DNA of 64,000 nucleotides, taken from the NCBI GenBank assembly GCA_947259495.1, contig CAMYLV010000012.1, positions 1-64,000 of the forward strand, written 5' to 3'. Below, piece by piece: positions 5,661-64,000 of the stretch. Under the pieces are notes generated by a model that was not told where the DNA came from, ran no database searches, and saw only the letters and a list, made by a program, of their open reading frames with translations. Position numbers and translations under genes: made by a program. Origin of the DNA: an uncultured Desulfobacterales bacterium. Its GTDB lineage: Bacteria; Desulfobacterota; Desulfobacteria; Desulfobacterales; JAHEIW01. The first letter of the stretch is position 1. Each line of letters starts with the position of its first letter.

Positions 5661-7043
5661 ATGGAAACAATCCTCATTGTGGATGACGAAAAAAACTATC
5701 TGACCATTTTAAACGAGATCCTGGAAGAAGAAGGCTTTGAAGTGCTGACTGCGCCCGGTGGACTGGAGGCGCTTGAAGTTCACAAAACATCTGATCTGGA
5801 CCTCATTCTCACCGATATGAAAATGCCAAAAATTGACGGTATTCAACTGCTCGAGAATATTAAAGCAGATGATCCGGATCTGCCGGTTATTATGATGACG
5901 GCCCACGGTACAGTGGATAAAGCCGTCGAGGCCATGCAGAAAGGGGCCTACACCTATGTCCTGAAGCCCTTCGACAATGAGCGTTTGATTATTTATGTTA
6001 AAAAAGCGATCTCCACGTACCAGGTGGTCAAAGAAAACCGGCGCCTGCGCGAGGCGGTTGAATCCCAATTTCGTTTCGACAACATTATTGGCAAAAGCAA
6101 AAATATGCGGGATATTTTTGATACCATTCAGAAAGTGGCGCCTTCCGGTGCGACTGTACTAATTGAAGGCGAAAGCGGCACCGGCAAAGAACTGGTTGCG
6201 CGATCCATACATTTTAATTCCGCCAGACGTGCAAAGCCTTTCGTGGCTGTAAATTGTTCGGCCCTTGCTGAAAACTTGCTGGAAAGCGAACTTTTCGGCC
6301 ATGAGAGAGGCGCCTTTACCGGCGCTGTGGCAACTAAAAAAGGTCGTTTTGAACTGGCGGACGGCGGAAGCCTTTTTTTAGATGAAATCGGTGAATTATC
6401 CCCGAATCTGCAGGTAAAATTATTGCGCGTCCTGCAGGAAAAAGTTTTTGAGCGCGTGGGCGGCGTCCGTACTATATCGGTGGACATTCGTATTATTGCC
6501 GCCACCAACAAGGATTTAAAACAGGAAATGATGGACAATCTCTTCCGTGAGGACCTTTATTATCGATTAGATGTCGTTCATATTGTTTTGCCGCCTTTGA
6601 AGGATCGCAAAGAGGATATTCGACTGCTGGTCAATCATTTTATTAAAAAATATGCATCTGAGCGCAAATCCGAAGCTCCTATCATGGGCGTCGACCAGCA
6701 GGTGGACCGGCTATTTTATGATTACAACTGGCCCGGAAATATCCGCGAACTGGAAAATGTCATCGAGCGGGTGATGATCCTGTGTCCGGGTGAGACTATC
6801 CGCGTTGCGGATCTTCCGAAGGGGTTTAAAGATAATGTTTACAACACCTTGCATCTTGAAGGCATACCGGCAAATGCCAAACTCTACGATACGCTAGCCA
6901 TTATCGAACGCACTATGATTGAACGTGCGCTGAAAATGAGCAACAACGTTCAATCACATGCAGCAGAATTGCTGGGAATTGGCAAGAGCGGTCTCAATCA
7001 GAAAATTAAAAAGTATAATCTGGAAGTCGGCGCAAAGCATTAA
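5661..7043 (+). CDS. Sigma-54-dependent response regulator, NtrC family
   Basis: Activates sigma-54 promoters after phosphorylation. The 460-aa protein has an N-terminal receiver domain (acidic pair VDDE at 8-11, phospho-Asp in LILTDMKMPK at about 52, conserved Lys in LKPF), an AAA+ core (Walker A GESGTGKE, sigma-54 contact loop GAFTGA, Walker B LFLDEIGEL, RELENVIERV) and a Fis-type HTH at the C-terminus (about 415-455). It lies 77 bases after the sensor kinase on the same strand, so the two are a cognate pair. PilR-like by context; AtoC/ZraR-like by architecture. Confidence 0.9.
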   Translation: METILIVDDEKNYLTILNEILEEEGFEVLTAPGGLEALEVHKTSDLDLILTDMKMPKIDGIQLLENIKADDPDLPVIMMTAHGTVDKAVEAMQKGAYTYVLKPFDNERLIIYVKKAISTYQVVKENRRLREAVESQFRFDNIIGKSKNMRDIFDTIQKVAPSGATVLIEGESGTGKELVARSIHFNSARRAKPFVAVNCSALAENLLESELFGHERGAFTGAVATKKGRFELADGGSLFLDEIGELSPNLQVKLLRVLQEKVFERVGGVRTISVDIRIIAATNKDLKQEMMDNLFREDLYYRLDVVHIVLPPLKDRKEDIRLLVNHFIKKYASERKSEAPIMGVDQQVDRLFYDYNWPGNIRELENVIERVMILCPGETIRVADLPKGFKDNVYNTLHLEGIPANAKLYDTLAIIERTMIERALKMSNNVQSHAAELLGIGKSGLNQKIKKYNLEVGAKH

Positions 7044-12868: not shown

Positions 12869-12983
12869 TCCTTTTCATTAGGCAGTTTGGAACGGGACCC
12901 CGTCCGAACGCCGACTTAAAAATAGCTCTCCTTCGAGCTTCTTTGTCTGAATCTGAAGCCTGCGTGCTGCTCCTGAGCACCGC

Positions 12984-13094
12984 TATAATATGCTTTTCTT
13001 ATCCCGATTGTCAAGGTGCTGGGGCGGAATTGGGGCATAAGTGGTTGTAGAAAAAAACGTTTGAATATCGGAACGTTTTTTGACAACCACTATA
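12984..13094 (-). repeat. MITE-like element A1 (reverse orientation)
   Basis: Reads, on the minus strand, as the family pattern: TATAGTGGTTGTC, then an inner hairpin pair ACGTTCCGATATT / AAACGTTTTTTTCTACAACCAC, then the diverged end GAAAAGCATATTATA. It fills the gap between the FmdB-type gene and the acyltransferase gene. The right-hand end is the more diverged one in this copy. Confidence 0.65.
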
Positions 13095-23214: not shown

Positions 23215-23341
23215 CGGGTTTCAGGTATCAGTGTTCAGGTGTCAGTAAACAGAGGACAGATACGCCGCTTTAGCTCCCATTATTTTTTATCTGTCTACTG
23301 TCGTCTGACCTCTGTCTTCTGAACACCGACACCTGAAACCT
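23215..23341. repeat. Repeat D1, TCAGGTGTCAG-type inverted repeat
   Basis: A 127-bp element with self-complementary ends (GGTTTCAGGT ... ACCTGAAACC) and a core AGGACAGATACGCCGCTTTAGCT. The core recurs, inverted, at 37671-37802. It fills the gap between the FGGY kinase and the K+ channel. Confidence 0.75.
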
Positions 23342-28078: not shown

Positions 28079-28139
28079 CCGGCTCAACGGGTTAACCGGC
28101 CAACCTATTATCGTAACTACATTCTTGAGATGGGTTCTA
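28079..28139. repeat. Repeat G1, CAACCTATT-type
   Basis: GGCTCAACGGGTTAACCGGC followed by CAACCTATTATCGTAACTAC and TTGAGATGGGTTCTAC. The same order of motifs recurs at 51359-51410. It runs directly into MITE-like element A3. Confidence 0.55.
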
Positions 28140-28242
28140 CAGGGATTGTCAAAAAAATGTTCCGGTACGCGAACGTTTTTTTCTACAACCCCTTATGCCG
28201 TACATCCGCATCACGGAACATCATAATGAAAAGCGGTATAAA
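28137..28242 (+). repeat. MITE-like element A3
   Basis: Left end TACAGGGATTGTC, inner arms ATGTTCCGGTACG / CGAACGTTTTTTTCTACAACC, a CTTATGCCG junction and right end GAAAAGCGGTATAA. 106 bp, lying between pckG and the AmpG-like gene. Confidence 0.75.
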
Positions 28243-37670: not shown

Positions 37671-37802
37671 GTCAGAGGTCAGATTTCAGAAGACAGAAGA
37701 CAGATAACAGATAAAAAAATGGAAGCTAAAGCGGCGTATCTGTCCTCTGTTTTCTGTCCTCTGTTTTCTGTCTGTAATCGGATACCTGAACACTGACACC
37801 GA
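37671..37802. repeat. Repeat D2, inverted copy of D1
   Basis: Carries ATACGCCGCTTTAGCTTCCAT (core, read on the minus strand) flanked by ATCTGTTATCTGTCTTC-like arms. The match with 23215-23341 runs over most of the element, opposite orientation. It occupies the gap between the RACo-like and Sir2 genes. Confidence 0.75.
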
Positions 37803-38598: not shown

Positions 38599-38828
38599 TT
38601 ATAGTGGTTGTCAAAAAACGTTCCAATATTCAAACGTTTTTTTCTACAACCCCTTATGCCGCACTTCCTTAATTGGGTGCTTTTAACCGGGTGCTTTGCA
38701 CCCGGTTACACCCGCACCGATTAAGGCACTACCGTGCCTTAAGTTTTTCCGCTGATGACGGAAAAATCCAAGCCACCCGCTCTGCGGGTGGTCGGTGACT
38801 CGGAACAGTAATATGAAAAGCGGTATAA
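38599..38828 (+). repeat. MITE-like element A4 with cloverleaf insert
   Basis: Ends TTATAGTGGTTGTC and GAAAAGCGGTATAA. Inner arms ACGTTCCAATATT / CAAACGTTTTTTTCTACAACC match A3. Between the CTTATGCCGCA junction and GGAACA lies an extra ~135 bp: the cloverleaf unit U3. 230 bp in all. Confidence 0.8.
38669..38801 (+). repeat. Cloverleaf-capable element U3
   Basis: Preceding hairpin AACCGGGTGC/GCACCCGGTT; closing stem CACCGA (38715-38720) / TCGGTG (38792-38797); hairpin 1 AAGGCAC/GTGCCTT (38723-38740); hairpin 2 TTTTTCCG/CGGAAAAA (38744-38766); hairpin 3 CCACCCGC/GCGGGTGG (38773-38791). All stems are perfect. Unpaired TCCAAG precedes hairpin 3 and ACTC follows the closing stem. Confidence 0.8.
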
Positions 38829-38892
38829 TTGGTTGGGAAGGATCAGAATCGGGCCAAACCAATGAAACCAATCGAACCAATTAAACGTTTGC

Positions 38893-39732
38893 TTACAATT
38901 CAAATCTCATATCGGTGGCCACACCGACACACTCGATTTGAAGGCCATTGTCATCTAAGTATTGCCGGCAGGTGCTGACCATATCATCCATCTGATCATC
39001 GGTGCGTTCCTGGTTTATATGGAAAAGCCCCAATTTTTTTACCTTTGCCTTTTCGGCCAATCTAAGCACATCGGTATAAACCGAATGGCCCCATTCGATG
39101 AAGGTCTGATACTCATCAGGCGTGTATTCGCTGTCATGAATTAACAGATCAGCGCCGGCTGCAAATTCTACATATTCATTAAACCGCCGTCCACCGGCAT
39201 GACGATACCCCAGTTCATTGTCCGTCAGAAAAACAAAGGACTTGCCGTCTTCGATAAACTTATAGCCGCTGCCGCCGTTCGGGTGACTGATCGGTATAGG
39301 GATGACGGATACCGAGCCGATTTTAAATTCCTGGGGGCAGTCTTTTTCATAGGTCATCTGTGCCTTGACATCGGCGTATTTTACAGGAAAATTGGGGGGT
39401 GCCATCACCGTTGATAAAATGGATTCCACAAACTGGCTGTGAAACGGACAGCCGTGCATCAGAAGTTTGGCATCTTTAAAATAAAGCGGCTTGAAGAAAG
39501 GAAATCCCATCAAATGATCCCAATGGGCATGGGTGAAAAGAAAATTGATAGCGAGCGCGTTTTCTTCAACAAGTCTCTTTCCGAATCTGCGAATTCCGGT
39601 ACCGGCGTCAACCGCAATGATATCACCGCTTTTGGTGCGGATCTCTAAACTGGTGGTATCGCCGCCGTATTTTAAATAAGCTTTGCCCGAAACCGGTATG
39701 GAGCCTCTCGATCCCCAGCATGTGATTTGCAT
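38893..39732 (-). CDS. MBL-fold metallohydrolase
   Basis: A 279-aa metallo-beta-lactamase-fold enzyme. It starts MQITCWGSRGSIPVSG (typical of the phosphodiesterase-like MBL group), has THAHWDHLMG as the main dinuclear metal motif, and LIHDSEYTPDEY then GHSVYTDV further on. Likely a hydrolase of phosphodiester or ester bonds; substrate unknown. No signal peptide, so it is cytoplasmic. Confidence 0.8.
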   Translation of the reverse strand: MQITCWGSRGSIPVSGKAYLKYGGDTTSLEIRTKSGDIIAVDAGTGIRRFGKRLVEENALAINFLFTHAHWDHLMGFPFFKPLYFKDAKLLMHGCPFHSQFVESILSTVMAPPNFPVKYADVKAQMTYEKDCPQEFKIGSVSVIPIPISHPNGGSGYKFIEDGKSFVFLTDNELGYRHAGGRRFNEYVEFAAGADLLIHDSEYTPDEYQTFIEWGHSVYTDVLRLAEKAKVKKLGLFHINQERTDDQMDDMVSTCRQYLDDNGLQIECVGVATDMRFEL

Positions 39733-39798
39733 CTTGGACCTTTCAAGAAAAATTCATTTCCTTAAATTGCAATATGGCTCTTTTGTTAAAGCATTTTG

Positions 39799-39882
39799 CA
39801 CCACAAAGGGCACGAAGAACACGAAGAATAAAATGTTTTAATTGGTTTCAAACTTCGTGTACTTTGTGTCCTTCGTGGTTAA
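39799..39882. repeat. Repeat F2, CACGAAG-type
   Basis: CACCACAAAGGGCACGAAG, a spacer, and AACTTCGTGTACTTTGTGTC with CTTCGTGG: an imperfect inverted repeat. It overlaps the end of the prmA reading frame. Confidence 0.7.
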
Positions 39883-40803
39883 CAACAGGTTTTTTACGTC
39901 CGGCATATGGTTTACCGGCATTCGTTCGTTTTCCAGTTTCCAATCGCTTAATTCCCCGTAAAATGTATGCCAGATTCCTTCATGAGTCCAGCTTTTTAAT
40001 ATTTTAGCCGGCAAGCGCTCCAATTCAATTTTTACCTGTTTGGCTTCACTGCGCATAAGGCCCGAAAGGATAAAGCACTTTTTGGTTCTGAAGCCCTGCG
40101 ACCGAATCAGCTTTTGCATGACCTCATAATGGACATTGGCCATCAGCAGATCAGCCGGGCAATCAATAAAATCCTCGGCATATCCCTGCACGACCGCGAC
40201 CTGTTGTTCATGGCAATTTAAGCGGACGTTTCTTTCAGCTGTTGCGGCGGCCAGCAAATTCAGGTCAACTGCGAGATTTAATTGGCAGCCCAGACGCGCT
40301 GTGGCCAAAGCCAATATGCCGGTACCGGTGCCTAAATCCAGAGCGCTATTGGGTGAGTGGCTCCGGCATGCCAGCTGGACCGCATCCAGACAATCCCGGG
40401 TGGTGGGATGGGTGCCGGTGCCAAAGACAAGACCCGGGTCCAGGATTATCGCCAGCTTATCCGGCCGGGTTCGAGTATGGTTTTCCCATGGCGCAATGAT
40501 CTGAAAAGGACCGTGATCAAAAGAGCTAAATGCCGTCCCCTGCCACTGTTCATAGGGCATGTGATAACTGTCGATATAGGAGAGCTGGGGCTGGGTGCGC
40601 AAAAGATTCTGGATGTCCTCAAAAGCGGGCTGAGAAAAGAAAAGAAACGAGAAATCATCTTCTTCCCAGTTGCCGATAAAACTGCTCTTTGGGATTTTAT
40701 CCTGAGATGTCAATCGGCCGTTGAGGTGATAGATATATAGATCATCGTACGGGCACGTGCCGGATTTTTCACGGGCAGAGCGCGGGCTTTGAGCGTCATT
40801 CAT
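39838..40803 (-). CDS. prmA: Ribosomal protein L11 methyltransferase (PrmA-like) with repeat-encoded tail
   Basis: Methylates L11 using SAM. Residues include DPGLVFGTGTHPTTRDCL (PrmA signature) and ALDLGTGTGILALATARLG (SAM motif I), DLLMANVHYEVM, and a C-terminal strand. The ATG overlaps the preceding gene's stop (40800-40803). The last ~15 residues, ending LTTKDTKYTKFETN, are coded by the CACGAAG repeat F2, so the natural C-terminus has been replaced or extended by repeat insertion. Length 321 aa. Confidence 0.82.
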   Translation of the reverse strand: MNDAQSPRSAREKSGTCPYDDLYIYHLNGRLTSQDKIPKSSFIGNWEEDDFSFLFFSQPAFEDIQNLLRTQPQLSYIDSYHMPYEQWQGTAFSSFDHGPFQIIAPWENHTRTRPDKLAIILDPGLVFGTGTHPTTRDCLDAVQLACRSHSPNSALDLGTGTGILALATARLGCQLNLAVDLNLLAAATAERNVRLNCHEQQVAVVQGYAEDFIDCPADLLMANVHYEVMQKLIRSQGFRTKKCFILSGLMRSEAKQVKIELERLPAKILKSWTHEGIWHTFYGELSDWKLENERMPVNHMPDVKNLLLTTKDTKYTKFETN

Positions 40804-41474
40804 TTTTTAGGCAACTGGTCTAAATACCATTCCATGGGGTCCAGCAAAGTAAAACCGAGGCTTTTTAATTTCTCTTTTATATGGGCAACATTTAGGGTCA
40901 ACAGATAAGGGAAAACGGCGCGTTTATCTTTTTGCCAGTACCGCGCCACCAGAATGCTGCCAAAGGAGATGTTCTCCTCGGTGATGGCATCGACAATTTT
41001 TTTTAACTGGCCGACTTTTTCTTCCATCAGGATACACAGCAATGTGCCCGGTTCGCCAATTCCTAAAACATTGATAAAAGCACGCAATAAATCTCTGACT
41101 GAGATAATCCCGGTTAAGATGCCGTCTTCTTTTACAACCGGCAAAGCGCCCACTCGGGCATCCTGTATGACCAGCAGCGCATCCTGAATGGTATAGGCAG
41201 GTGATATCGTGATCGGGTCGCGGGTCATGATGTCTTTGATTTTCAATTTGGAAAAACTGTCTTCTTCCGCCACTACGGAGGGTTGCTTGAAAAACTTATA
41301 GGGCAGCGCACTTCTGATATCGCGATCCGTTACAATGCCGATGAGCCGGCCATTGGGTTCCGTGACCGGAAGGTGGCGAATTTTGTGGTTTGCCATCAAT
41401 TCCTGTGCCGTAAAAATATCGGCCTCAGGTTCAACGGTGAGCACTTTGCGGGTCATGGAGTTGCTGACGAACAT
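40800..41474 (-). CDS. CBS-ACT domain protein (AcuB-like)
   Basis: A regulatory protein with two CBS motifs (RKVLTVEPEADIFTAQELMANHKIRHLPV and MTRDPITISPAYTIQDALLVIQD) and a C-terminal ACT-like part. Start at 41474 is preferred because AAAAGGAG lies 8 bases upstream; the longer frame to 41555 lies mostly in a repeat. CBS pairs bind adenosine nucleotides. In Bacillus acuB is next to the deacetylase acuC; here the AcuC-like gene is 172 bases upstream, on the same strand, which supports the comparison. Confidence 0.78.
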   Translation of the reverse strand: MFVSNSMTRKVLTVEPEADIFTAQELMANHKIRHLPVTEPNGRLIGIVTDRDIRSALPYKFFKQPSVVAEEDSFSKLKIKDIMTRDPITISPAYTIQDALLVIQDARVGALPVVKEDGILTGIISVRDLLRAFINVLGIGEPGTLLCILMEEKVGQLKKIVDAITEENISFGSILVARYWQKDKRAVFPYLLTLNVAHIKEKLKSLGFTLLDPMEWYLDQLPKK

Positions 41475-41525
41475 AATCATTTCTCCTTTTAGTCCTGATA
41501 ATCCGGAAAAACAAAAAAATAAATT

Positions 41526-41607
41526 TACCACAAAAGCACGAAAACGATAAAACACGAAACACTAAAAAATAATTTCGTGCTTTCTATATTTCGCACTTTC
41601 GTTATTA
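41526..41607. repeat. Repeat F3, CACGAAA-type
   Basis: ACCACAAAAGCACGAAAAC ... AACACGAAACACT with TTTCGTGCTTTC and TTTCGCACTTTCG as the second half. It separates the CBS-ACT gene from the AcuC-like gene. Confidence 0.65.
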
Positions 41608-41645
41608 AAAAGTTTTCCCTCGGAAGACAACATCGCATTTAATCT

Positions 41646-42599
41646 CTAACCGTTTAACAAAACCTCAACATGATTGCGGGCCAGCTCCGGCAGGCGTTTA
41701 ATTGAATATCCGCCTTCTAGAACCGATATCAGCCTGCCCCGGGCATACTCGGCAGCCATTTCAACGATTTTTTTAATGATCCAGGTAAAACCCTCTGTTG
41801 TCAGTTTTATGTCCGACATATTATCTTCAATATGGCCATCGAAGCCGGATGAAACTAGAATGACCTGCGGCTTAAAATCTGCAAAGACAGGCATTAAATC
41901 CCTTTGCAGTATTTGCTTGTATTCGCTATCTCCCTGACCGGGCAGCATCGGTGAGTTTTTGGTGTAGCCATGTCCGGCATCTTTGCCCATTTCAAATTCA
42001 CGACCGGTTCCGGGATAGGCAAAGGTTGGATGCTGATGAATGGAATAGTAAAATACAGTGGGATCCCGCTCAAAGATGTGCTGAGTTCCGTTTCCATGAT
42101 GAACATCAAAGTCGACAATACCGACTCGCTGTATTCCGCATTGCTTCTGAATGTAGCGGGCCGCAATAGCCACGTTGTTAAAGTAGCAAAATCCCATGGC
42201 TTTGTCGACTTCAGCATGGTGACCGGGTGGCCGGACGGCGCAAAACGCATTGTCCAGTTCGCCCTCAAGGACCAAGCGGGTGGCCTCTAAAACCCCTCCC
42301 ACCGCCAGCAAAGCAATTTCATAAGTAGCCGGGCACATCTGGTTGTCGGGACTGTCAAAGATATTATTGCCGCTGCTGCATGCTTTCTGCAAGCGTTTGA
42401 TGTAATGGGGGTCGTGCACGGTTTCCACCCATTTCAAATCCGCAGGCACGGCTTTAATCAATGTGAGTTGCTCAAGCAGACCTGCATCCTGGATTCCTTT
42501 GTATACCGCTGGAAGCCGATCCGGCATCTCCGGGTGGTAGTTTCCGGTCAGATGCTGCTGGTACCTGTCATCGTACAAAAAGCCGGTTCTATTACTCAT
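41646..42599 (-). CDS. Histone-deacetylase-family amidohydrolase (AcuC-like)
   Basis: Zinc-dependent deacetylase. The 317-aa protein carries the active-site set RPPGHHAE, DFDVHHGNGTQHIF, GFDGH and LEGGYS. AcuC removes acetyl groups from acetyl-CoA synthetase in Bacillus; related enzymes act on polyamines. It lies beside the AcuB-like gene and less than 4 kb from a sirtuin, so a protein or small-molecule deacetylation role is plausible. Confidence 0.85.
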   Translation of the reverse strand: MSNRTGFLYDDRYQQHLTGNYHPEMPDRLPAVYKGIQDAGLLEQLTLIKAVPADLKWVETVHDPHYIKRLQKACSSGNNIFDSPDNQMCPATYEIALLAVGGVLEATRLVLEGELDNAFCAVRPPGHHAEVDKAMGFCYFNNVAIAARYIQKQCGIQRVGIVDFDVHHGNGTQHIFERDPTVFYYSIHQHPTFAYPGTGREFEMGKDAGHGYTKNSPMLPGQGDSEYKQILQRDLMPVFADFKPQVILVSSGFDGHIEDNMSDIKLTTEGFTWIIKKIVEMAAEYARGRLISVLEGGYSIKRLPELARNHVEVLLNG

Positions 42600-42655
42600 A
42601 GATTATCTACTCTGTCTCACTAATTTTTAGCCTACGCTCTTCCCTATGCTATGTT

Positions 42656-43405
42656 CTAGGCAACAATTTTGTCAAATATTTCGAATGCGGCTTTGACCGA
42701 TTTACTATTTTCGGGCATTTCAATGGTCGGGCGGCCGTTGAAATCAAAATCATAAATCAGATCATCTGCCGGCACGGTTCCGATCAGCTCAAGGCTGGCT
42801 TTTTTAAGCTTGTCCATGACCGGCTCAGGCGGTGCTTCACGCGCCTGGTTGATCACCACGTAGCTTTTACCGATACCGATGTTCAGACAGCGGGCCAGTT
42901 CATCGATGCGCACCGCTGCCTGAAGCCCTCGTCTGGAAGAATCCGAGACGATCAACAGGATGTCGACGTTTTTGGTTGTCAGCCGGCTGATATGTTCCAT
43001 GCCGGCCTCATTGTCCATCACAATATAGGGATAATTTTCGGACAGGCGTTCAAGGTAATTGGTCAGCAAGGTGTTTGCCGCGCAATAGCAGCCGGCACCT
43101 TCAGGCTGGCCCATCACAACAAGATCAAAGCCGTCAGCTTCAACCACCGATTCCTCCAGCTTCATTTCTATGAATATATCTTTGGTCATACCGCTGGGAA
43201 CATCGCCTTTTTTCATTTCTTCCCGGGCGTTGCCCAGGGTATCGCCAAGTTTAAGACCTAAAACTTCATTTAGGTTGGCATTACAATCGGCATCCACCGC
43301 CAGAATCGGCGTTTTATTTTTTTTCAGCAAAAATTTTATGAGCATACCGGCCATGGTGGTTTTACCGGTTCCACCCTTGCCGGCAAGTGCGACTGAATAG
43401 GCCAT
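42656..43405 (-). CDS. CooC-like nickel-insertion ATPase
   Basis: P-loop protein of the MinD/Mrp class: GKGGTGKTTMAGML (deviant Walker A), DADCNANLNEVLGLKLGDTLG, the conserved GAGCYCAANTLL with the CxC metal motif, and DNEAGMEHISR. These match CooC, which loads nickel into carbon monoxide dehydrogenase. 249 aa from 43405, chosen for the AGGAAA 9 bases upstream over the 324-aa frame. No CODH gene is in the window, so the client is elsewhere or differs. Confidence 0.82.
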   Translation of the reverse strand: MAYSVALAGKGGTGKTTMAGMLIKFLLKKNKTPILAVDADCNANLNEVLGLKLGDTLGNAREEMKKGDVPSGMTKDIFIEMKLEESVVEADGFDLVVMGQPEGAGCYCAANTLLTNYLERLSENYPYIVMDNEAGMEHISRLTTKNVDILLIVSDSSRRGLQAAVRIDELARCLNIGIGKSYVVINQAREAPPEPVMDKLKKASLELIGTVPADDLIYDFDFNGRPTIEMPENSKSVKAAFEIFDKIVA

Positions 43406-43575
43406 CTTTGTCAGTTTCCTTTCATTCATATTCCGATTATAAAAAATTAAAATCGATATATTCAGTCTAAATATATTGCACATTTTTAGAATTTGAAACG
43501 CACAAGTTAGGTTAAGGTAGATTATGCCTTCAGTCAAGAGCCTTTTAAACTCCTTGAAAAGCTGCCGGCCATATG

Positions 43576-43735
43576 TTAATTGGGTTTTCCAAACCGGGTC
43601 GTTGTTTGTGCATAGAACGGTACTGCGCACCCGATCACAAACGCAATGATTGCGAACTGACGTTCGCTTGTCTTTCCGTCATACGGCCGGAAATTCAAGC
43701 CATCCCGCTCATAGAGCGGAATGGTGATTGACGCG
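43576..43735 (+). repeat. Cloverleaf-capable element U1
   Basis: Starts TTAATTGGGT like U3. Closing stem CAAT (43644-43647) / ATTG (43727-43730); hairpin 1 GCGAAC/GTTCGC (43652-43667); hairpin 2 TTTCCG/CGGAAA (43673-43693); hairpin 3 CCAT.CCGCTC/GAGCGG.ATGG (43700-43724), with one bulged pair. TTCAAG precedes hairpin 3. Stem sequences differ from U3 but pairing is kept. Confidence 0.75.
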
Positions 43736-43840
43736 CAGCCGGTTTAACCCGCAACGATTGGGGCAATTCGTGCCCCTGTCTTGTACCGCCTTTGGCGGTA
43801 AAATCCAAGCCACCCGCTGTGCGGGCGGCCGTTGACTCCA
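43736..43840 (+). repeat. Cloverleaf-capable element U2
   Basis: Tandem with U1. Closing stem CAACG (43752-43756) / CGTTG (43830-43834); hairpin 1 GGGGCA/TGCCCC (43760-43776); hairpin 2 TACCGCC/GGCGGTA (43784-43800); hairpin 3 CCACCCGC/GCGGGCGG (43810-43828). ATCCAAG precedes hairpin 3 and ACTCC follows the closing stem. Confidence 0.75.
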
Positions 43841-49092: not shown

Positions 49093-49197
49093 TTATAGTG
49101 GTTGTCAAAAAAACGTTCCGATTGTGGGATGTTTTTTTGCTACAACACTTATGCCGCCATCCTTTTTTTCGGAACATTATTATGACAAGCGGTATAA
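49093..49197 (+). repeat. MITE-like element A5
   Basis: TTATAGTGGTTGTC, arms AACGTTCCGATTG / GGGATGTTTTTTTGCTACAAC, CTTATGCCG, and end GACAAGCGGTATAA. It lies just upstream of the FixH-like gene, within its likely leader. Confidence 0.78.
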
Positions 49198-49390
49198 AAA
49201 ACATCCGCGACTGCTGCAATAGCGGCCGCGGATGCTGAATTATTTGCTTTTCATATTTATTGTTGCTTCCCTGCTGCTAATAAATGTTTTCTGTCTCGCA
49301 AATAGGGTCCATTCACACAAAAAATATTTCCATAACTCTAATAAGGATAGTTATTACTGTTTAATCAACCGTTTTTATATAATTAAAATG

Positions 49391-49519
49391 ATTTAAAAAT
49401 CCCAGATTTTATCTGAGGGCACGGCGCAATTCGATTCGAAAGTGGAGCGTACACGATAGTACGCGAGCATTTTGGATCGGATTGTAACACAGCCCTTGGG
49501 TAAAAGATGGTGGTTTTTA
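49391..49519. repeat. Stop-codon palindrome P3
   Basis: Ends GATTTAAAAATCC / GGTGGTTTTTAAG; CTGAGGGC pairs with GCCCTTGG; inner arms AATTCGATTCGAAAGT / GCATTTTGGATCGGATT; apex GCGTAC-ACGATA-GTACGC. Ends 8 bases before the ETF-QO stop codon on the minus strand. Confidence 0.78.
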
Positions 49520-52461: not shown

Positions 52462-52692
52462 TTATAGTGGTTGTAAAAAAACGTTCCGTTATGCCAACGC
52501 TTTTTTTCTACAACCACTTATGCCGCAATTCCGCAATTGGGTGTTTTTAACCGGGTGCTTTGCACCCGGTTATACCCGCACCGATTAAGGCACTACCGTG
52601 CCTTTGGTTTTTCCGCTGATGGCGCAAAAATATAAGCCACCCGCTCTGCGGGTGGTCGGTGACTCGGAACATTAAAATGAACAGCGGTATAA
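52462..52692 (+). repeat. MITE-like element A6 with cloverleaf insert
   Basis: Ends TTATAGTGGTTGTA and GAACAGCGGTATAA. Like A4 it holds an extra block (U4) between CTTATGCCGCA and GGAACAT. 231 bp, between the ZIP gene start and cysS. Confidence 0.8.
52534..52665 (+). repeat. Cloverleaf-capable element U4
   Basis: Closing stem CACCGA (52579-52584) / TCGGTG (52656-52661); hairpin 1 AAGGCAC/GTGCCTT; hairpin 3 CCACCCGC/GCGGGTGG identical to U3. Hairpin 2 is degenerate (TTTTTCCG / CGCAAAAA). Confidence 0.75.
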
Positions 52693-55054: not shown

Positions 55055-55105
55055 AGTTGTTATGATTGTTTCTAATAAAATGAGCAGATTTTTGGTGAAA
55101 TATAA

Positions 55106-55345
55106 GACTTAAACGGGTATCAGGGGTTTTAGATTTTGTTCGATAATAAATGTAGAAATGGTTTTAAAGCCTTAGATTTTGTTTGAGGGCCCCCGCAGAA
55201 TGCGGGATTTCACATCTTGATCTAATAAATTAATGTGTTCAAACTGCGCAGTTTTTTCGAAGAAAATAAAGACGTAAACGGGTATCAGAGGTTTTTGGTA
55301 ATAATAGTAGAAATGGTTTTAGAGCTTTAGATTTTGTTCGAGGGC
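55106..55345. repeat. Tandem duplication of a palindrome arm
   Basis: 55106-55190 and 55271-55345 share ACGGGTATCAGGGGTTTT-type sequence, GTAGAAATGGTTTTA and TTAGATTTTGTTYGAGGGC, about 80 bases each. The first copy stops where the left arm of P4 stops, then diverges into a small CCCGCA/TGCGGG hairpin. Confidence 0.6.
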
Positions 55346-55447
55346 GCGGCGGGATTCGATTCAAAAACGGAGCGTACACGATAGTACGCGAGTATTTTGG
55401 ATCGGATCGCAACAAAGCCCTCCGGCAAAAGATAGGGCTCTAAAACC
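55325..55447. repeat. Stop-codon palindrome P4
   Basis: Arms TTTTAGAGC ... GCTCTAAAA and TTCGATTCAAAAACGGAGCGTAC / GTACGCGAGTATTTTGGATC; apex GCGTAC-ACGATA-GTACGC (identical to P3). Ends 6 bases before the nrdJ stop codon. Confidence 0.8.
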
Positions 55448-58300: not shown

Positions 58301-58405
58301 TTATGCCGTTTTCCATAATAAGGTTCCGGAATACAGAAGTGCGGCATAAGGGGTTGTAGAAAAAAACCTTTGATTACCGCAACGTTTTTTTGACAACCCC
58401 TATAA
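58301..58405 (-). repeat. MITE-like element A7 (reverse orientation)
   Basis: Reads from the minus strand as TTATAGGGGTTGTC ... ACGTTGCGGTAATC / AAAGGTTTTTTTCTACAACC ... GGAAAACGGCATAA. 105 bp, lying between the NrdR-type promoter and the lipoprotein terminator. Confidence 0.75.
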
Positions 58406-63871: not shown

Positions 63872-64000
63872 CAGCGTAGCCATTATCTCTTGCCCGATAG
63901 CTGTGTTACAAACCGATTTAAAATGCTCGAATACTATCGTGTATGCTCCGCTTTTAAATCGGTTTGCGCCTTGCTCTCGAACAAGATCTAACGGCTACGC
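63872..64000. repeat. Stop-codon palindrome P5 (reaches the window end)
   Basis: Begins a few bases after the activator stop codon. GCGTAGCC ... GGCTACGC at the ends; GATTTAAAATGCTC / CGCTTTTAAATC inside; apex ATAC-TATCGT-GTATG. It terminates at base 64000, so the far end may continue. Confidence 0.75.

Follow-up and report, generated by a model that had tools for sequence, protein, structure and literature searches.

A cloverleaf repeat of a Desulfobacterales genome, very probably a transposase-less PATE-like element of the IS200 group

Transposition in the IS200/IS605 family proceeds on single-stranded DNA (ssDNA), is strand-specific and depends on pairing between guide sequences and cleavage sites (PMC8266576). 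ISDra2 from Deinococcus radiodurans inserts 3' of TTGAT (PMC2806898). Palindrome-associated transposable elements (PATEs) were described in Haloquadratum walsbyi, where they expanded while IS200-type transposases were disrupted (PMC3119063), and were also reported from cyanobacteria and Salmonella (PMC4853749). Here we analyze a 126-nt repeated element from the first 64,000 nt of contig CAMYLV010000012.1 (GenBank assembly GCA_947259495.1) of an uncultured Desulfobacterales bacterium. Further in the text this whole stretch is referred to as the window, and G and L numbers denote genomes and loci, respectively. Judging by its sequence, the element is very probably a non-autonomous, transposase-less PATE-type unit of the IS200 group of the IS200/IS605 family, because its right end matches that of IS200, its junctions are clean, it is found at TTGAT-like targets, and its guide and cleavage site covary. 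That the fold is conserved is best accounted for if a transposase reads it as a signal on ssDNA, and not by a role as RNA.

Like PATEs, the element is short, contains no transposase gene and no terminal inverted repeats, produces no target duplication, has near-terminal palindromes resembling those of IS605-type transposons, is often hit by other elements, and has expanded where IS200-type transposases are broken or absent. It differs from them in being bacterial, from an order-level group including Desulfobacterales, in having IS200-group ends and in keeping the three-hairpin right end as a closed cloverleaf. With insertion sequences (IS) of the IS200 group (e.g. L103, L104, L105 and the 80 loci scanned below) it shares the order of two hairpins (HP1 and HP2), CAAG, a GC-rich hairpin (HP3) and TGAC followed by T, as well as the left-end hairpin and the lack of duplication. 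These IS carry a Y1 tnpA gene of about 150 codons between their ends, whereas the element has no tnpA of its own, and their HP3 is mostly CCACCGGC, compared to mostly CCACCCGC in the element. The resemblance to ISDra2 comprises the left TTGAT target, subterminal secondary structure and ssDNA; ISDra2, unlike the element, carries both tnpA and tnpB. We regard the element as a new PATE-like family of the IS200 group, of a type already known. None of the papers found describes this family.

The element consists of one 5' hairpin (HP0), forming the left end, and a three-hairpin cloverleaf, forming the right end. At 126 nt it is too short to encode a transposase, and no transposase gene is present in it. 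The ends, TGGGT... and ...TTGAC, are not inverted repeats, and HP0 and HP3 are subterminal. The right end reads CAAG-CCACCCGC..GCGGGTGG-TCGTTGAC and is followed by TC. The copies in the window (U1–U4) and the parts of U1 are as follows.

38674..38799, + strand: U1, complete element TGGGTG...GGTGAC, 126 nt (boundary uncertain by one T)
38675..38713, + strand: hairpin HP0 at the left end of U1, with GGGTG/CACCC as outer and AACCGGGTGC/GCACCCGGTT as inner stem
38715..38797, + strand: U1 cloverleaf, the IS200-like right end
38715-38720 with 38792-38797, + strand: U1 closing stem CACCGA/TCGGTG
38723-38740, + strand: U1 HP1
38744-38766, + strand: U1 HP2
38767-38772, + strand: U1 guide TCCAAG
38773-38791, + strand: U1 HP3
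38795..38799, + strand: U1 right cleavage-site-like GTGAC (TTGAC or TTTAC in other copies)
43581-43602 and 43733-43836 (span 43581..43836), + strand: U3, 126-nt element interrupted by U2
43603..43732, + strand: U2, diverged copy of 130 nt within the left hairpin of U3
52538..52663, + strand: U4, complete 126-nt element, 92% identical to U1

An earlier sequence-only reading of the window had proposed a cloverleaf in four copies, kept by compensatory changes and selected as RNA or ssDNA. All four copies and the helices it named are present in the sequence, but U1 and U4 are not independent, being 92% identical and both lying in copies of one mobile repeat, and U2 and U3 are not adjacent but nested. 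Neither is the cloverleaf the full unit, given the fourth hairpin on its 5' side. The four copies are also far from the total, which is about 40 in the genome: BLAST with U1 yielded 49 matches, and the covariance model R1, built from alignment A2 of gene-less copies only (131 positions, 44 pairs), finds 40 places at E <= 2e-6.

Folded as ssDNA, U1 forms the cloverleaf and the fourth hairpin with −46.8 kcal/mol (z −9.9). U4 adopts the same shape (z −8.9); the fold of U2 is weaker (z −3.1), with an alternative in which the guide pairs directly with the site. The structure was assessed in an alignment of 12 copies, all from the source genome. In this alignment 89.5% of pair cells are standard, compared to 33–45% in slid controls, and the covariation score is 0.187, compared to 0.082 ± 0.010 in shuffles (exceeded in 0 of 500) and 0.03–0.06 when slid. 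Since both values lie above their controls, the cloverleaf structure is real and above chance. The compensatory changes were confirmed as well, ten pairs having changes on both sides.

The strong fold and the covariation, together with the fact that the window copies lie between genes, might suggest that many intergenic regions encode a structured RNA with a regulatory or trans-acting role, a reading that we consider very improbable. The departures from Watson–Crick pairing comprise 98 G.T/T.G and 91 A.C/C.A among 2,902 cells. As G.U is not enriched over A.C, nothing here points to RNA; the balance gives no sign of RNA-level selection, although it could also have arisen as old copies decayed. 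No relevant match was found in Rfam at gathering or permissive thresholds, in agreement with the earlier remark that no known RNA family was recognized, and a tRNA/tmRNA search returned none. Moreover, tandem and divergent gene neighbours flank the window copies alike, the transposition junctions are clean, insertions are nested, and the layout of the ends is identical to that of IS200. Of the two substrates proposed earlier, ssDNA is thus retained and RNA is not.

The junctions were read from three kinds of sites. Most copies in the source genome, U1 and U4 among them, are carried within a miniature inverted-repeat transposable element (MITE) of about 103 bp that is flanked by TA. Comparison of an empty MITE, CCGCCATTCGGAACATTAATATG (L038), with a filled one, CCGCCATTGGGTG...GGTGACTCGGAACATTAATATG (L002), gives the junctions CCAT^TGGG...GTGAC^TCGG and leaves one T ambiguous. 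At L060 the element interrupts a tyrosine recombinase (integrase) gene of the source genome: an unoccupied homologue from the same genus reads GTCAGTGAT-TCAGACCTTCAA (NIVSDSDLQ), and the source genome, GTCAGCGAT-[126 nt]-CCGGATCTTCAA (NIVSD-[126 nt]-PDLQ). Finally, U3 without U2 measures 22 + 104 = 126 nt, equal in length to U1 and U4. Target duplication is absent at the MITE and integrase sites and on removal of U2 from U3. The copy at L060 (G000 C10, about 6583-6713) lies in frame with the recombinase and is open throughout, adding 42 codons (DWVFQTGCFAAGFTRNDWGTSRP...); the host gene has probably decayed, as its N-terminal part contains stops.

The left flanks of 57 non-MITE copies follow the consensus TTGAT (T 32, T 44, G 32, A 48, T 57), where the last count is complete by construction, copies without the final left T having been excluded beforehand. 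On the right, the first base is T in 39 and the second C in 36 of these copies. The 5' foot of the left hairpin is CAA in 46 of 63 copies, complementary to TTG of the target; no covariation was detected between the left TTG and the internal CAA. Some insertions lie in palindromes: a terminator-like palindrome carries L030 in its loop, MITE-borne copies lie at the midpoint of a short palindrome, and the left hairpin of U3 contains U2. This might mean that the element targets DNA palindromes such as terminator or hairpin loops. We rejected this candidate as highly improbable, because the 57 joined flanks do not exceed permuted ones: the stem score is 4.34 versus 4.11 ± 0.19, with one strong case versus 0.67 expected. 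The chance that the element is an integron-type attC or another tyrosine-recombinase site is negligible. A single-stranded hairpin with conserved unpaired bases and insertion without duplication are features that such sites share, but the right end GTTGACT departs from the core GTTRRRY, and the copies are lone, have inserted at dispersed TTGAT sites and resemble the right ends of IS200.

Genes of HUH transposases were sought as Y1 (PF01797). Transposases (TnpA) of the IS200 type, about 150 aa long, are encoded in the relatives G005, G014 and G037, where the right ends of IS200 have the layout of the element: two hairpins, then CAAG or CATG, a GC-rich hairpin and ..TGAC. In G014 about ten IS200 copies share GGTGAC, mostly followed by T, and the R1 matches in this genome are IS200 3' ends. 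When R1 was run blind over 33 Y1 loci, six of them scored at E < 0.01 (4.6e-6 to 0.0099), three in G014, two in G005 and one in G037; all six are IS200 right ends beside the ~150-aa tnpA. The cloverleaf thus corresponds to an established transposon terminal region, the IS200-group right end, which explains the structure; this is an outcome that the sequence-only reading had itself named as refuting it. That reading is partly supported, being right on the structure kept by compensatory change and on ssDNA as one of its two options. Scanning 84,980 species genomes for IS200 tnpA provided 80 loci from many phyla, and the right end was automatically readable in 40 of them. Across phyla these ends read CAAG-[GC-rich hairpin]-..TGAC|T. 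The third bases of guide and site form C:G in 36 of the 40 (CAAG-type feet, TGAC-type sites), and natural swaps of both, TAAG/TTAAC and AAAG/GTTAC, occur. In the gene-less copies the same two bases vary together (C:G in 52 and A:T in 6 of 73, permutation p 0.0005), with the variants CAAG/TTGAC and AAAG/TTTAC.

The other Y1 proteins of these genomes are of the RAYT (TnpA-REP) type, about 330 aa long. It is unlikely, in our estimate, that the elements belong to the RAYT system, moved or maintained by such host proteins as repetitive extragenic palindromes (REPs) or REPINs. In favour of this, the source genome and the element-rich genomes G070 and G003 have three to seven RAYT-type genes and no IS200-type tnpA, and RAYTs are related HUH enzymes that use a 5' tetranucleotide in much the same manner to choose where they cleave (PMC8266576). 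REP/REPIN systems share with the element a hairpin with a 5' tetranucleotide foot and the enzyme family. However, the right-end sequence of the element is that of IS200, its foot is CAAG compared to GTAG in two REP groups (PMC8266576), and the RAYT genes are not flanked by it in the way REPs flank theirs. All three Y1 genes of the source genome are RAYT-type; considered as flanked parents, they were rejected, no element-like ends being found around them. Nor were such ends found around the sampled RAYT-type genes of the relatives, and R1 does not score the ~330-aa loci above chance among the 33. The relatives carry from 1 to 12 or more RAYT-type genes (L113, L122 and L123 among them), and the C-terminus of some of the proteins matches the C-terminal domain of DnaA (G070, 3,570,429).

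Several observations weigh against assigning the element to the IS200 group. The ~150-aa IS200-type tnpA was not found in the source genome, G070, G003, G002 or G001, which have only RAYT-type Y1 genes, and no complete autonomous IS200 with exactly these ends was found. Strand counts relative to replication, bearing on the lagging-strand orientation bias of IS200/IS605 ends, were done by hand in G070, a one-contig genome, with dnaA at 767 kb provisionally taken as the origin; they are 6+/11− and 7+/5− and give no clear reading either way. The GC-skew fit there has p 0.01 and rests on a contrast of 0.0095, with weak skew over twenty 15-kb samples. G005, a genome of the same family, was left out of this count because of its two full-length dnaA genes (4,029,546 and 38,473 on one 7.0-Mb contig), which may be truly duplicated or else come from a chimeric assembly. 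Finally, the closing stem (CAACG/CGTTG) overlaps the right cleavage site, which the IS608/ISDra2 model does not account for. Covariation is seen in this stem, with C:G/A:T changes at one of its pairs and A:T/C:G at a second, in an alignment that had been fitted to it. G070-type copies combine a mismatched closing stem (CACCG/CGTTG) with a guide that fits, and MITE-borne copies show the opposite; this contrast may reflect a switch or two ancestral states. In the former case the stem would pair with the same TTG that the guide CAAG must read, holding the end closed until another pairing opens it. That the closing stem is such a DNA switch, a self-gated ssDNA transposition signal possibly served by a host RAYT where the IS200 transposase is absent, seems to us quite doubtful.

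For a PATE-like unit of the IS200 group, anatomy, junctions, target and covariation suggest IS200-like transposition with the enzyme supplied in trans. The following scheme is extrapolated from IS608 and ISDra2, two relatives that have been studied. A Y1 HUH transposase would bind the + strand hairpins when the DNA is single-stranded and, directed by the guides, cut the left end after TTGAT and the right end after TTGAC. Each terminal hairpin has at its 5' foot a short CAA or CAAG motif, which is complementary to TTG(A) both in the target and in the right-end site. The element would then be released as a single-stranded circle and pasted 3' of another TTGAT. The fold would be conserved because it is the signal that the transposase recognizes.

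Most copies in the source genome very probably spread in a second way, as passengers of the TA-targeting MITE after one past insertion of the element. The MITE is presumably IS630-like, given its TA ends. Its ends are imperfect terminal repeats, TATAGTGGTTGTC and GAAAAGCGGTATA; terminal inverted repeats and TA duplication are features of this outer MITE and are absent from the inner element. It has many copies in the genome, including a tandem run in L037 (400-660), and empty ones are found outside the window as well. Those in the window are as follows.

38600..38827: MITE hosting U1 (TATAGTGGTTGTC...GAAAAGCGGTATA), split by U1
52463..52691: MITE hosting U4
28138..28240, + strand: empty MITE copy
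49094..49196, + strand: empty MITE copy
58302..58404, − strand: empty MITE copy
12980-13094, − strand: MITE copy

U3, L025, L027, L028, L030 and L031 stand alone outside the MITE. The nested U2/U3 pair moved as one unit, because a second copy of the pair, 86% identical, occurs at another site of the genome (L036). The element is present in 24 of 96 genomes searched, a set formed by the source genome and its relatives, almost all from one order; some relatives have about 24–35 copies each. Only three of 297 genomes sampled evenly across the phylum match at 1e-5, and two of these belong to the same order.

The window contains other repeats. A second dispersed repeat of about 130 nt has copies at 49379-49508, 55304-55433 and 63880-63989 (− strand) that are 78–79% identical, with the hairpin-like core GGAGCGTACACGATAGTACGCGAG and related blocks at 55089-55345. 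An inverted pair, 23224-23336 and 37671-37800, is rich in CTGTC/CAGTC motifs (GGTATCAGTGTTCAGGTGTCAG...) and is possibly another small repeat family.

What looked like a new structured RNA is thus best explained as a mobile ssDNA signal, a caution against equating strong covariation with RNA. The analysis adds a wide bacterial order, one including Desulfobacterales, to the range of gene-less IS200-type elements, reveals natural compensatory swaps of guide and cleavage site across IS200 ends, and provides a case of one mobile element hitch-hiking inside another.

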